A stretch of 54,020 nucleotides of DNA from Actinomycetota bacterium (GTDB lineage Bacteria > Actinomycetota > Actinomycetes > Nanopelagicales > Nanopelagicaceae): the NCBI GenBank assembly GCA_027728065.1, contig JAQBVO010000011.1, positions 1 through 54,020 on the forward strand, read 5' to 3'. Shown piece after piece: positions 14,733 through 54,020 of this stretch. Under the pieces are notes generated by a model. The model had not been told where the DNA came from. It did not search any database and saw nothing but the letters and a program-made list of their open reading frames with translations. Made by a program: the position numbers and the translations under genes. How positions within the stretch are numbered: position 1 is the first letter of the stretch; each line of letters opens with the position of its first letter.

Positions 14733-14978
14733 ATGGAAAAAGGGGTCGAAATTCGCTACTTTGCCGCCGCACGTGCTGCCGCAGGCGTAGATCAAACTAG
14801 TTTTGCACCTGCTCGATTTGATTCAATCATTGCCCAAGCCTGTATCTCTAATCCATCGTTAGCACATGTGATTTCGCAGTGCAGCTTTCTCTTAGATAGC
14901 GTGGCCGTGCATGATCAAAGCTGCATGGTGGCCGATGGCAGTGTTATCGATGTACTTCCACGTTTTGCTGGCGGCTAA
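14733..14978 (+). CDS. moaD: Molybdopterin synthase small subunit / ThiS-MoaD family
   Basis: 81-residue beta-grasp sulfur carrier. It opens with the MoaD-like IRYFAAARAAAGV and ends in the essential LPRFAGG diglycine tail, whose terminal Gly becomes the thiocarboxylate that supplies sulfur for molybdopterin dithiolene. It is the only plus-strand gene of the Moco block, transcribed divergently from tauE and convergently with moaE (10-bp gap). The middle of the protein is divergent, but the context with moaE, moaC, moeA and mobA makes MoaD much more likely than ThiS. Confidence 0.85.
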   Translation: MEKGVEIRYFAAARAAAGVDQTSFAPARFDSIIAQACISNPSLAHVISQCSFLLDSVAVHDQSCMVADGSVIDVLPRFAGG

Positions 14979-14988
14979 ATCTGCGCTC

Positions 14989-15411
14989 TTAGGCACTATT
15001 GACCCACTCCCCGGTCCCATCTACAAATACTTGATACTTCCAGATAGGAAGTTTTGCCTTAATCTGATCAACTAATCTCGAACAGATCTCAAAGGCGCTG
15101 GCCCTATGGGCCGCCGAAACCGCTACAAAAAAGGCGCTTTCACCTATCTCAATGGCTCCATAACGATGTGAGAGCGCAACTTTTATGGCCTCACTGGATT
15201 CAATAACACTGTTGGCAATCACAGTAATCTGCTCATGAGCAGTTGGATGTATCTCATATCGCAGTGCGGTCACCTGCCTGCCTCCATCGTGATTACGGAC
15301 ATTGCCAGTAAATGTAGCTATAGCTCCAGCGCTATCATCTTTTACCAGCGCTATTAACTGAGCAATCGATAAAACATCGGTTGTAAGACTGGCACGCACT
15401 AACTGCGCCAT
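14989..15411 (-). CDS. moaE: Molybdopterin synthase catalytic subunit
   Basis: 140-residue MoaE, which converts cPMP to molybdopterin using MoaD thiocarboxylate. Family landmarks are GAIATFTGNVRNHDGGR, ALRYEIHP, ALSHRYGAIEIGESAFFVAVSAAHR and the catalytic lysine region LPIWKYQVF. It starts at the last base of mogA (one-base overlap) and ends 10 bp from convergent moaD. It would act with the MoaD encoded on the opposite strand. Confidence 0.93.
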   Translation of the reverse strand: MAQLVRASLTTDVLSIAQLIALVKDDSAGAIATFTGNVRNHDGGRQVTALRYEIHPTAHEQITVIANSVIESSEAIKVALSHRYGAIEIGESAFFVAVSAAHRASAFEICSRLVDQIKAKLPIWKYQVFVDGTGEWVNSA

Positions 15412-15902
15412 CAGTGATCGACTCCATCGAGCTGATCTAAGATATGGCCCGCTAAACGTTCGATAATAACAACGCCATCTCGTACGCCACCCTGTGATCC
15501 GGGTAGATTTATAATCAAAGAGTTTGCATGTGTACCTGCTAGCCCTCGAGTTAAATCTGCAGTTGCGACACTTTTCCGCGAATATGCCCGTAACGCTTCG
15601 GAAAAACCTGGAAGGAGTTTTTCAATAAATGGTGCGGTCGCCTCGGGTGTCACATCGTGGGGCGAAACTCCAGTTCCACCAGTTGTCACAATCAACCGTA
15701 CTTTATTTGCAAGGGCCTTAACTATTTCGCCACTTATAGCATCGATATCGTCGGCGACGATTACTGGATTGCTAACTACGTAGCCAAGTTTTTCGAGCGC
15801 CTCTTGCAGAGATTTACCACTTAAATCCGGGTAGATACCTTGCGATGCACGGTTGCTCGCAGTGATTACAGTTGCTGTGCGTGCTATCACGCCCGCTTCC
15901 AA
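15411..15902 (-). CDS. mogA: Molybdopterin adenylyltransferase (MogA/MoaB family)
   Basis: 163-residue MogA/MoaB-type protein that adenylylates molybdopterin ahead of metal insertion. Motifs: RLIVTTGGTGVSPHDVTPEAT (molybdopterin-binding loop) and GTHANSLIINLPGSQGGVRDG. It overlaps moaC by 16 bp and moaE by one base, forming a tight moaC-mogA-moaE unit. The MogA versus MoaB distinction cannot be made safely by eye; the function is the same in practice. Confidence 0.9.
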   Translation of the reverse strand: MEAGVIARTATVITASNRASQGIYPDLSGKSLQEALEKLGYVVSNPVIVADDIDAISGEIVKALANKVRLIVTTGGTGVSPHDVTPEATAPFIEKLLPGFSEALRAYSRKSVATADLTRGLAGTHANSLIINLPGSQGGVRDGVVIIERLAGHILDQLDGVDH

Positions 15903-16360
15903 TCACCGTTCTTACCTCCAGATTTAGAGTCGATGCGAATATCGGTGATCGTTGCCGATGGATCAAGAGCTTTAACCATATCGATAATAGTCAATCCGGC
16001 AACGCTGACAGCAGTTAGCGCCTCCATCTCAACACCGGTTCGATCATAGGTTACAACATGGGAGTTAATAGCAACCCCTGAATCAACTATCTCTAAATCA
16101 ATCCCTATCGAATTAACTGCAATTGGATGACATAGTGGAATAAGTTCGCTCGTTTTCTTAGCCGCCATGATGCCTGCGATCCGTGCAGTTGCTACAACAT
16201 CGCCTTTAGGTGTTGTCCCATCGCGCAAAAGTCCAACAACATGTGGCGATAGATGAACATGGGCCGATGCATCGGCGATCCGCAGACTCTCTTGGCGGCC
16301 AGCGGTATCGACCATATTGGCTGCACCTTTACTGTCTAGATGCGTTAACTTATCGTTCAT
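15887..16360 (-). CDS. moaC: Cyclic pyranopterin monophosphate synthase accessory protein
   Basis: 157-residue MoaC, which acts after MoaA to form cPMP from the 3',8-cyclo-GTP intermediate. Conserved blocks are MVDTAGRQESLRIADA, KGDVVATARIAGIMAAKKTSELIPLCHPI and YDRTGVEMEALTAVSVAGLTIIDMVKA. A TAGACT -10 lies 7 nt before its ATG in the 18-bp gap after moeA, so it probably starts its own transcript. No moaA gene is in the window, so that partner must be elsewhere. Confidence 0.95.
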   Translation of the reverse strand: MNDKLTHLDSKGAANMVDTAGRQESLRIADASAHVHLSPHVVGLLRDGTTPKGDVVATARIAGIMAAKKTSELIPLCHPIAVNSIGIDLEIVDSGVAINSHVVTYDRTGVEMEALTAVSVAGLTIIDMVKALDPSATITDIRIDSKSGGKNGDWKRA

Positions 16361-16367
16361 AGAGTTG

Positions 16368-16373
16368 AGTCTA
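16368..16373 (-). promoter_or_regulatory. moaC leaderless -10 box
   Basis: TAGACT on the minus strand, 7 nt before the moaC ATG at 16360, with no Shine-Dalgarno. It would give moaC-mogA-moaE an independent transcript. Confidence 0.5.
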
Positions 16374-16378
16374 ATTCG

Positions 16379-17539
16379 CTATGGCAGTGATAGCCAACGT
16401 ACTGATTCGCCAGGGGCAGTGAGAGTTTTAACTACAACGGCAAAGCCCGTTGAATGGGCTAAACCGCGCAACATCGCCGAACCCAAATACTCTTCAACCA
16501 CGAACTGGCCGTCTACTAAGTTACCAATGATTAAACGTGTGAAATCGGCTGGTGCCGTAAGTTCATCACGGGTAATCACCGTTGGAAGATCATCCCGGTT
16601 CTCCCCTAGCATCGCATCGATAACTGGTTGACCCAGTGAGATAAGTGCAACGATGGCAGATTGTGGATTGCCAGGCAGACCAAAGATTGCACTAGTCTGT
16701 GTGCGAGCTAACAACATGGGATGTCCCGGCCGCACTGCAACGGTATCAACGAGAATATCTGCACCGATTTCGGCTAAAGCGTTATGAAGATAGTCGCGCG
16801 GACCTGCTGCCGTACCACCTGTTGTAATGACAATATCGGCGCTAGCACATGCCTGGCGCGCAGCGTTAACTACTAAATCTAACTCATCGGAGATATATAT
16901 AGATGAGATGGTTTCACAGCCCATCTTTTCCAGCCAGCCGGGCAGTTGTGGGCCAAGTGCATCACGAACTAAACCGCGGCTTGGTACTCCAGTTAATTGA
17001 ATCTCATCGCCTAATAAAAGCAGTGCAACTCTTGGTTTTCTAACAACATCTATCGTGTCTAACCCAGCGGCTGCAAGTAAGCCAATCATCGCAGGATTGA
17101 GTTTTGTACCCGCCTTTATTAATAGATCTCCAGCTTTGCACTCGTGAGCTGCGGGGCGGATATCTTGATTCTCAATGGCTTGCCCAGTCAGTACTTTCTC
17201 ATCAACCTGCGCCTTCTCCCAACGGATTATTCCAAATGTGCCATCTGGAATTACCGCTCCCGTTGCAATGCCAACTGCATCACCGGCTTTAAGCGCGCTC
17301 TTCATCGGCATTCCTGCCTTTACTTCACCGATTATTTTCCATGGTCCACTACCTGCAACTGCATATCCATCCATTGCAGATGTTGCATACGTCGGTAAAT
17401 CACAGAGGGCATGTACATCACTTGCTAATACTCGATTGATACCCGCACTTACTGCGATATTGTGCGATGGCAGTGCAGTAAATGATTTCTTGGCAATACC
17501 TCGTGCCGCATCCCAACTACCCTCGATCAATGTGCTCAT
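16379..17539 (-). CDS. moeA: Molybdopterin molybdenumtransferase
   Basis: 386-residue MoeA, inserting molybdate into adenylylated molybdopterin. Evidence: the LPTYATSAMDGYAV motif near residue 50, a VITTGGTAAGPRDYLHNAL nucleotide-binding loop, RPGHPMLLARTQTSAIFGLPGNPQSAI, and a C-terminal domain IV. The loop reads TTGGTAAGPRDY where E. coli-type proteins have SGGVSVGDYD, so it belongs to a divergent MoeA subgroup. The ATG overlaps mobA by 4 nt. Confidence 0.92.
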   Translation of the reverse strand: MSTLIEGSWDAARGIAKKSFTALPSHNIAVSAGINRVLASDVHALCDLPTYATSAMDGYAVAGSGPWKIIGEVKAGMPMKSALKAGDAVGIATGAVIPDGTFGIIRWEKAQVDEKVLTGQAIENQDIRPAAHECKAGDLLIKAGTKLNPAMIGLLAAAGLDTIDVVRKPRVALLLLGDEIQLTGVPSRGLVRDALGPQLPGWLEKMGCETISSIYISDELDLVVNAARQACASADIVITTGGTAAGPRDYLHNALAEIGADILVDTVAVRPGHPMLLARTQTSAIFGLPGNPQSAIVALISLGQPVIDAMLGENRDDLPTVITRDELTAPADFTRLIIGNLVDGQFVVEEYLGSAMLRGLAHSTGFAVVVKTLTAPGESVRWLSLP

Positions 17540-18138
17540 AGCGCTTCATTATCGGCTACTTGGGCATCAAAAGCGATTGCCCGATCTAAATCAGCCTGGG
17601 TATCGATATCTAGTAGCGCTCGCGCTACTTCATCGCTCATTAAAACCTCTTGAACCCTCAGATGCGATATCAACTCTTTCATCGACTTTCCATCGACCTC
17701 GCCCATTTCGGCAAATGCTCGCTCAAGAGATTCAACGCGATAGAGGGCAGCAAGCGGCTGTTTAAATCCCTTGTCATCGACATACATCACAGCATCATCG
17801 TGGGCTCGCATGTAGTTTAATAGATTAATAACACGTGGTGGCGCAAAGGGCATATCGGTAGCGATGAGTGCAACCATGTGCGACGCGGCGATATCTAGGC
17901 CGGCTTTTAAAGCTGCCACTGGTCCACCACCCATCGGTTTTTCAACCACACACAGATACTGTGAACTATAAATATTTGGATCTGGCCCAACGATAATAAT
18001 CTCAAACCCTTTTGGAATAGATCTGAGAATACGTGCAATCAAAGATTCGCCACCGATTAGCGCGGCAGATTTATCAGAGCCAAAACGTGTACTGGTCCCA
18101 CCGCTTAAGATTATGACGCTCGCGCTTTTAGATTGCAC
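17536..18138 (-). CDS. mobA: Molybdenum cofactor guanylyltransferase (MobA-like)
   Basis: 200-residue nucleotidyltransferase adding GMP to Mo-molybdopterin to build MGD, the cofactor form used by formate dehydrogenase. It shows the NTP-binding signature IILSGGTSTRFGSDKSAALIGG, VGPDPN, EKPMGGGPVAALKAGL and ALIATDMPFAPP. The GTG start at 18138 is preceded 6 nt upstream by TATCCT and has no Shine-Dalgarno. It is first in a mobA-moeA unit. Its presence fits a bis-MGD enzyme, the FdhA encoded nearby. Confidence 0.9.
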   Translation of the reverse strand: MQSKSASVIILSGGTSTRFGSDKSAALIGGESLIARILRSIPKGFEIIIVGPDPNIYSSQYLCVVEKPMGGGPVAALKAGLDIAASHMVALIATDMPFAPPRVINLLNYMRAHDDAVMYVDDKGFKQPLAALYRVESLERAFAEMGEVDGKSMKELISHLRVQEVLMSDEVARALLDIDTQADLDRAIAFDAQVADNEAL

Positions 18139-18143
18139 ATGGC

Positions 18144-18149
18144 TAGGAT
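18144..18149 (+). promoter_or_regulatory. Metallophosphoesterase leaderless -10 box
   Basis: TAGGAT on the plus strand, 7 nt before ATG 18157. It nearly coincides with the mobA -10 on the other strand. Confidence 0.5.
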
Positions 18150-18150
18150 A
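18145..18150 (-). promoter_or_regulatory. mobA leaderless -10 box
   Basis: TATCCT on the minus strand, 6 nt before GTG 18138. It shares five of its six base pairs with the opposing metallophosphoesterase -10. Confidence 0.5.
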
Positions 18151-18156
18151 GTGACC

Positions 18157-19713
18157 ATGGGATATGCCCCGGGTGAAGCCAACGAACTGGGTTGGCGGGA
18201 TTTAGTTGTACAGGCCGATCAGCCTCATATCGGCCATCGCTTTCCCACAACCAGTATCCCGCTTCTTCTGCTGCATCACTTATCTGATCTGCATGTATGT
18301 GATGCTCAGTCTCCAACACGGCCTGAGTATTTAGATCGATGGGCCGATCCCGATAGTCCAATCCGTAAAGAAGTTGGCACCATCGGGACATATCGTCCCC
18401 ACGCGATGCTCTCACCACATGTTGTAGAGGCAATGGTTCAATCGCTCAATAAAATTACGCGCGGACCGCTCTCTGGCCATGAGATCAATGGAGCGATTAT
18501 TACTGGCGATACCACCGATAATGCGCAGTTCAATGAGGTCAGCTGGTACTTAGCTCTATTAGATGGCTTGGAGTTTCGCCCCGACTCTGGCGATTACGAA
18601 AAGTATGAGGGCGTAATCGATGATGGTGCCGATCACTATGACCTTCGATATTGGCACCCGCATGGAACACCTGCAGGAAAAGTCGATGATGATGCTCGGG
18701 CTAAATATGGCTTCCCAGTCGTACCAAATCTTTTAAACAACGTGCGCACAGTATTTAAAGCTACTGGACTTAAATTCCCTTGGTATGCAGTGCACGGTAA
18801 CCATGATGCACTACTGCAAGGAACGGTCGCTCCCGAACCAAACATTAATGGCGAGATGATTGGTAATAAGCGCTATACCGGATTGCCCTCAAATGTGAAC
18901 TTGGCCGAAGTACTAGCTAGCTTTCAAGAGGTCGGTCCTGCAGGTTATCCGCCAGCATCTGATGCCCCCTTTACGCAGGTAACTGCAGATATCCAGCGCC
19001 GCGCAGTAGAGCGCGGTGAGTACGCTGCAATGCACATGGCTGCCCCAGGTCTGCCAAAGGGGCATGGCTTTACGCAGGAGAATGTCGATAAGAAACATAT
19101 GTATTACGCCACATATATCGGTGCGGTAAAACTCATTGTTATCGATAGCGTCAATCACTTTGGCGGTTGGCAGGGATCTCTAGATGTCGAACAGTTTGAA
19201 TGGTTGGAGCAAGAGATCGCATCCTCGGATAGACCTGTAATTCTTGCCTCTCACCATCCGCTCAACACAATGTTTAACAGTTACGCTCCCTTTGGCAGAA
19301 GGGTTTGCCTCGAAGAGATTAAAGAGATGTTGCTGCGTTATCCCAATCTGATTGCCTGGTTTGCCGGGCATGAACACCGTCATCATATTGAGTGGGTTGG
19401 TGCCCAGGAAGAGGTGCGCGGCTTCTGGCATATTGAAACCGCCTCGCATGCCGACTGGCCGCAACAATCACGTGCTATCGAAATTGTCCGTGATGGGGCT
19501 GGAGATATCTACTTTGGCTTGAGCATCATTGATCATGCAGGTGGGTGCGATTATGGCGATGCGAAGGAGCCAGTTGATATCGCCGCCCTTTCCAGACTTT
19601 TAAGTGCAAACATCTGGCAAAAGCGGCCTGAACTAGGTAGCGGCCATGATATTCACTGGTGGAGCGGACGGGCTCAAGATAGAAATGTGATACTGAAGAT
19701 AAATAAACGTTAA
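18157..19713 (+). CDS. Metallophosphoesterase, large actinobacterial (TIGR03767-like) type
   Basis: 518-residue calcineurin-like phosphoesterase. Metal-binding motifs: LHHLSDLHVCDAQ (D-x-H), ITGDTTDN (GDxxD/N-like), VHGNHDALLQG (GNHD), ILASHHPLN and FAGHEHRH. I see no signal peptide or membrane segment, so it is probably cytoplasmic. The start was chosen at ATG 18157 because TAGGAT stands 7 nt before it; in-frame starts at 18133 and 18139 would run into the mobA start. Substrate is unknown. The stop shares a TTAA with convergent mgtC. The subfamily label comes from overall resemblance, so treat it as probable. Confidence 0.8.
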   Translation: MGYAPGEANELGWRDLVVQADQPHIGHRFPTTSIPLLLLHHLSDLHVCDAQSPTRPEYLDRWADPDSPIRKEVGTIGTYRPHAMLSPHVVEAMVQSLNKITRGPLSGHEINGAIITGDTTDNAQFNEVSWYLALLDGLEFRPDSGDYEKYEGVIDDGADHYDLRYWHPHGTPAGKVDDDARAKYGFPVVPNLLNNVRTVFKATGLKFPWYAVHGNHDALLQGTVAPEPNINGEMIGNKRYTGLPSNVNLAEVLASFQEVGPAGYPPASDAPFTQVTADIQRRAVERGEYAAMHMAAPGLPKGHGFTQENVDKKHMYYATYIGAVKLIVIDSVNHFGGWQGSLDVEQFEWLEQEIASSDRPVILASHHPLNTMFNSYAPFGRRVCLEEIKEMLLRYPNLIAWFAGHEHRHHIEWVGAQEEVRGFWHIETASHADWPQQSRAIEIVRDGAGDIYFGLSIIDHAGGCDYGDAKEPVDIAALSRLLSANIWQKRPELGSGHDIHWWSGRAQDRNVILKINKR

Positions 19714-53948: not shown

Positions 53949-54020
53949 TGGTCGGGGCGGGGAGATTCGAACTCCCGGTCTCCTGCTCCCAAAGCAGGCG
54001 CGCTAGCCACTACGCTACGC
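53949..54020 (-). tRNA. tRNA-Pro (anticodon TGG), 5' end cut by window
   Basis: Reads on the minus strand. The 3' acceptor CGCCCCG, discriminator A and encoded CCA are present; T-loop TTCGAAT. The anticodon arm is CCTGC-TTTGGGA-GCAGG with TGG at 34-36. The first few acceptor bases lie beyond the right edge. Unlike the other two tRNAs here, its CCA is genomically encoded. Confidence 0.95.

Follow-up and report, generated by a model that had tools for sequence, protein, structure and literature searches.

A probable bidirectional promoter for two leaderless mRNAs occupies the 18-bp gap between mobA and a metallophosphoesterase gene in a member of the Nanopelagicaceae

How can two divergent genes be transcribed when only 18 bp lie between them? 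The question is raised by a 54,020-nt stretch of DNA (here, the window) that represents contig C11 of a 1.40-Mb, 45-contig genome (G000) of the Nanopelagicaceae. On its minus strand, a mobA-like molybdenum cofactor nucleotidyltransferase gene (17536-18138) begins with GTG at 18138, and on its plus strand, a TIGR03767 metallophosphoesterase gene (18157-19713) begins with ATG at 18157. Both open reading frames are genuine genes. The mobA-like protein matches NTP_transf_3 in Pfam but falls under the NCBIfam MobA equivalog cut-offs, and the phosphoesterase scores 338.3 bits against the NCBIfam model TIGR03767, which has a cut-off of 330.75. Behind mobA on the minus strand lie moeA, moaC, a mog/moaB-like gene (MoCF_biosynth), and moaE (14989-17539; Pfam matches), which are probably co-transcribed with mobA, judging from their common strand and the short gaps or overlaps between them. 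The whole intergenic region (18139-18156) reads ATGGCTAGGATAGTGACC, so that 18 nt separate the first base of one start codon from that of the other, for a start-to-start distance of 19. We propose that the housekeeping RNA polymerase uses this gap as a bidirectional promoter, from which it makes two leaderless mRNAs with predicted starts at 18138 and 18157, and we assign this reading a probability of roughly 85%. It is built on the sequence, the spacing, the conservation of the site, and the genome-wide position of TANNNT, from which we infer the start sites, leaderless translation, and two-way use.

The original prediction had drawn attention to two almost coincident −10 boxes in the gap, and inspection of the sequence confirms their placement. 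TAGGAT on the plus strand (18144-18149) has its first base at −13 from the phosphoesterase ATG, with 7 nt in between (18150-18156), while TATCCT on the minus strand (read from 18150 to 18145) has its first base at −12 from the mobA GTG, with 6 nt in between (18139-18144). The two boxes have five base pairs in common (18145-18149) and together span the symmetric heptamer TAGGATA (TANNNTA, 18144-18150), the proposed common melting site, in which A18145 and T18149 of the plus box pair with T and A of the minus box. In the mechanism that we propose, TANNNTA would provide one TANNNT −10 box per strand, with the key A of either box paired to the last T of its partner. The polymerase would bind either way round and open the same handful of base pairs; transcription would begin about 6 to 7 nt downstream on the first base of a start codon, either 18138 (minus strand, mobA) or 18157 (plus strand, metallophosphoesterase). 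Both mRNAs would be leaderless and translated as such. As the predicted starts coincide with both start codons, no room for a leader or a Shine-Dalgarno site would be needed, and the promoter would be the entire intergenic region. One polymerase would sterically shut out the other, with an effect on expression set by promoter strength.

Warman et al. reportedly described, in 2021, bidirectional promoters in which both directions share one near-symmetric −10 element. In the available text of the Grainger group's work, a bidirectional promoter is defined by divergent starts 7 to 25 bp apart on opposite strands (PMC10268837); the starts are most often 18 bp apart, which gives a 5-bp overlap, 10 and 23 bp are also frequent spacings, and slight shifts are tolerated (PMC12825309, PMC10268837). 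The site studied here resembles these promoters in its overlapping, opposite-strand −10 boxes and in the reciprocal pairing of the −11A of one box with the −7T of the other, which TAGGATA displays. Its predicted spacing lies within the 7- to 25-bp range and next to the 18-bp optimum, although we count the value of 19, rather than 18, against the bidirectional-promoter reading. It differs from them in that the predicted starts, 19 bp apart, coincide with both start codons, making the arrangement double leaderless, and in that it is known from cross-species conservation, whereas the published promoters were defined from start-site maps. The original prediction had further held that two polymerases cannot share the site and that the genes must therefore be transcribed in competition. 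Steric exclusion is indeed expected, since opposing polymerases cannot bind together at bidirectional promoters in general, as described in 2026 for Escherichia coli, but obligatory competition goes too far because the basal activity given in the same texts is too low for it (PMC12825309, PMC10268837).

Leaderless promoters of Actinobacteria provide the second precedent. In Mycobacterium tuberculosis, as far as the available text of Cortes et al. 2013 goes, leaderless mRNAs are associated with TANNNT 7 to 12 bp 5′ of the start and with no −35 consensus (PMC3898074), and leaderless TANNNT promoters are also documented for P. acnes (PMC3848588). The site agrees with this pattern, with leaderless mRNAs predicted and the first base of TANNNT close to 12 nt 5′ of each start codon (−12 for mobA, −13 for the phosphoesterase). 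No −35 element is evident: in the alignment, the conservation of columns −36 to −31 is no more than coding-like, and a sigma-70 consensus scan of 17500-18800 returned a single site elsewhere, reporting no promoter at 18144-18150. Unlike the leaderless promoters in the available portions of PMC3898074 and PMC3848588, the site would place two leaderless genes on one −10 element, an arrangement for which our search of open-licence papers also found no description. The step beyond what is known is nevertheless small, because closely juxtaposed divergent promoters are reported as common in M. tuberculosis and one divergent pair with leaderless mRNAs is shown there (Cortes et al. 2013, PMC3898074). 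We thus regard the site as a candidate two-way promoter of an already known kind, unusual in its compactness, whose new aspects would be the double leaderless form and the reduction of the gap to the promoter.

The heptamer pattern alone is no proof of function, because CAYN5TANNNTAN6RTG is expected 0.45 times per window, occurs once, and reaches one occurrence in 37 of 100 shuffles. Such within-window statistics are not significant, so chance is excluded only by conservation. Among 201 sampled genomes of the family, mobA-like matches came from 47 and phosphoesterase matches from 81. In 15 of the 30 mobA loci that we read, the phosphoesterase starts at exactly the distance seen in the window; the other 15 lack the arrangement. 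We also read 40 phosphoesterase loci, comprising 30 from family genomes and the remainder from the named collection, where 10 of 20 loci were left out of the count as contigs already counted. A divergent mobA lies upstream in 22 of the 40 and is absent from that place in 18; at locus L078, where the contig ends, only 27 aa of mobA are present. Within the named collection, the phosphoesterases most closely related to that of the window are 64 to 82% identical to it, and their records carry the names Candidatus Planktophila, Actinomycetota, Actinomycetes, and uncultured actinobacterium, as well as two Streptomyces names.

All 22 paired loci keep the start-to-start distance of 19, the 18-bp gap, the phosphoesterase ATG, and the mobA start (ATG in 18, GTG in 4); the window itself also offers in-frame alternative starts at 18133 (TTG), 18139 (ATG), and 18151 (GTG). 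Lack of conservation of the hexamers had been named as an outcome that would count against the original prediction, and it was not observed, since the overlap is retained in 22/22. Across 15 distinct 18-mers, the heptamer consistently reads TAG(G/A)ATA, with six of its seven positions invariant, including the reciprocally paired A18145 and T18149, and the remaining one kept in 21/22. Identity between pairs of loci averages 0.87 across the 18 bp, versus 0.36 at 109 fourfold sites within the phosphoesterase gene, which are near saturation and include none that is invariant. The 22 loci are not 22 independent events because they share ancestry. The overlapping-box site looks functional, and it is conservation that makes the case.

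The alternative that survives best is that only the plus box is a promoter, with the mobA promoter lying inside the phosphoesterase gene and the minus-strand TATCCT arising as a by-product. Phosphoesterase loci without mobA alongside speak to both sides of this proposal. TANNNT is present at −12/−13 in 14 of these 18 loci and missing in 4, so the plus direction alone can account for the TANNNT motif. However, the base after the plus box, which completes the minus box, is A in 22/22 loci with mobA versus 5 of the 14 box-bearing loci without it (Fisher p 2e-5, a guide only, since the loci are related and shared descent is uncorrected). The four loci of the same genus without an adjacent mobA have T (L033, L049, L053) or C (L062, assigned to the genus from its record title) at this position. 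The five loci that carry the A without mobA are what the plus-only alternative would allow, but taken together these counts link the last A of the heptamer to mobA, which is the expectation if it belongs to a mobA −10 box. Also against the alternative, the mobA start lies at exactly the leaderless offset of −12 in 22/22 loci, the same geometry recurs in a second, unrelated gene pair (see below), and the alignment columns for the 30 bases that open the phosphoesterase gene show no evident conserved mobA promoter. We consider it unlikely. On a strict reading, the mobA direction is the weaker half of our claim. Where mobA lies apart from the phosphoesterase within the genus, the picture is mixed: in genome G115, TATTAT stands 6 nt before an in-frame-looking ATG by eye while a scan from the alignment-derived start listed only −6, and in G197, a scan from the alignment-derived start gave nothing at the expected place of the box.

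We assessed the position of TANNNT across the genome using gene starts from a home-made ORF caller that is blind to promoter signals and imperfect in its choice of starts. Of 150 divergent genes of this genome, 22% are preceded by TANNNT at −12 and 13% by TANNNT at −13, compared with 0 to 3% at the remaining offsets printed (−25 to −3), and the peaks at −12/−13 are repeated in four more genomes of the family. The boxes of the mobA/phosphoesterase gap stand at precisely these offsets, which favors the suggestion in the original prediction of one symmetric melting site. Four-base Shine-Dalgarno motifs before the same genes reach at most 5% per offset and show no such peak, and this bears on a further alternative, in which AGGA (18145-18148) serves the phosphoesterase gene as a Shine-Dalgarno site and the gap matches TANNNT by coincidence. 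AGGA does lie 8 nt 5′ of the ATG at 18157 and is kept in 21/22 paired loci, but the exception, TAGAATA in genome G133, destroys it while preserving both TANNNT boxes, and loci without mobA (TAGACT, TAGAAT, TACGCT, etc.) likewise preserve TANNNT and not AGGA. The invariant last A and the mobA side, on which no Shine-Dalgarno site was seen by eye, are left unexplained, and we view this alternative as very improbable. In the bidirectional promoter that we favor, the AGGA of TAGGATA may double as a Shine-Dalgarno site for the plus-strand gene.

Least probable of all is that the conserved 18 bp are an operator for a regulator, for example a molybdate-responsive one, instead of or on top of a promoter: conservation does extend slightly past the heptamer, with an invariant AC at −3/−2, which is not explained by a −10 box, and C at −14 in 20/22 paired loci, but the conserved core is just 7 bp, fits the general −10 motif, and precedes unrelated genes, and inspection by eye shows no longer palindrome in the gap.

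The bidirectional-promoter reading extends to other divergent pairs of the family. Our sample comprised 259 pairs in five genomes (720 kb of one and 400 kb of each of four), several of which are orthologous between genomes and thus not independent. Boxes are present on both sides in 15 of the 21 pairs with start-to-start distances of 1 to 30, as opposed to 21 of the 232 pairs with larger distances. The commonest short distance is 19 (6 pairs), and both boxes are found in every one of these and of the 3 pairs at 23; by best starts, the five genome samples contain no pair at 15 to 18, 20, 21, or 24. Six short pairs (14, 22, 25, 25, 28, and 28) lack one or both boxes at −12/−13. An 18-bp pair on contig C7 was set aside, as calling it requires a 65-aa ORF and an alternative start.

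A 19-bp shared −10 layout is present between PfkB-family kinase and nucleoside hydrolase genes on contig C15 of the same genome (L191; 107131/107150) and is conserved across the genus. Among 30 nucleoside hydrolase loci, a PfkB-family kinase is divergent upstream in 27 and no kinase is found in 3. The spacing in the 27 is 19 by alignment in 18 and 24 in 5, and 4 further loci have CAY at the 19 column with an alignment that begins further in. TAGG(C/G)TA is invariant in 22 kinase/hydrolase loci (22/30 hydrolase loci). In the 24-type pair of G115, boxes stand at −13 and −12 on both sides and overlap by TA. Polyprenyl synthetase and MTHFR genes on contig C13 (L161; 89291/89314) have starts 23 bp apart, and in 6/6 loci of the same genus, the distance is 23 and the two boxes share a central TA. 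No both-sided match was obtained for this pair in G003 or in 22/23 loci from other families, where the starts hang on alignment edges and the result is not evidence of absence; in one locus (L174), the boxes are 58 apart. A carboxyl transferase/biotin ligase family pair in G103 (L247; contig C1, about 645429/645448) has a 19-bp layout with a shared TACGGTA, and the pair in G115, also at distance 19, is similar by eye.

Inside genes, both in the window and in samples of three genomes, TANNNT is depleted. The genome samples were compared with synonymous-codon shuffles, a baseline that does not preserve dinucleotides across codons and against which small differences are not readable. Observed-to-expected ratios on the sense and antisense strands are 0.66/0.69 in G000, 0.49/0.49 in G067, and 0.53/0.53 in G003. 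The depletion is confined to the TANNNT spacing, neighboring spacings giving 0.80 to 1.10 of the shuffle expectation. Its presence on both strands supports TANNNT as a polymerase signal in either orientation. TANNNTA falls further, to 0.41, 0.23, and 0.24 of expectation in G000, G067, and G003, respectively, which is below the values obtained by multiplying its one-sided parts (0.54, 0.30, and 0.34). Stray −10 boxes seem to have been purged from genes, as would be expected under selection against stray promoters.

We lean slightly towards a general statement for this streamlined family: the shortest divergent gap would be the promoter only, a TANNNTA serving two leaderless genes, with discrete spacings and the heptamer purged from genes. 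Because the transcription start and the start codon would coincide, start-codon distances would fall into a few box-overlap spacings (18-19 and 23-24). If so, orthologous pairs can switch spacing class, as the kinase/nucleoside hydrolase pair suggests (most species have 19, others 24), and bidirectional promoters become readable and countable from a genome alone. Such promoters were described recently, and their combination with leaderless mRNAs would allow architecture, selection, and evolution to be traced in bacteria that are hard to grow. At the present locus, a single polymerase site would link a molybdenum cofactor gene cluster with a phosphoesterase unrelated to it, with single-base predictions at 18144, 18150, 18138, and 18157, and the shared promoter suggests a possible route by which genome streamlining compresses regulation.

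Elsewhere in the window, an Rfam scan returned tRNAs only, and a tRNA at 53952-54020 is truncated by the contig end. Beside the molybdenum cofactor genes, a small plus-strand ORF (14733-14978) has no Pfam match, ends in Gly-Gly, and appears MoaD-like by eye.
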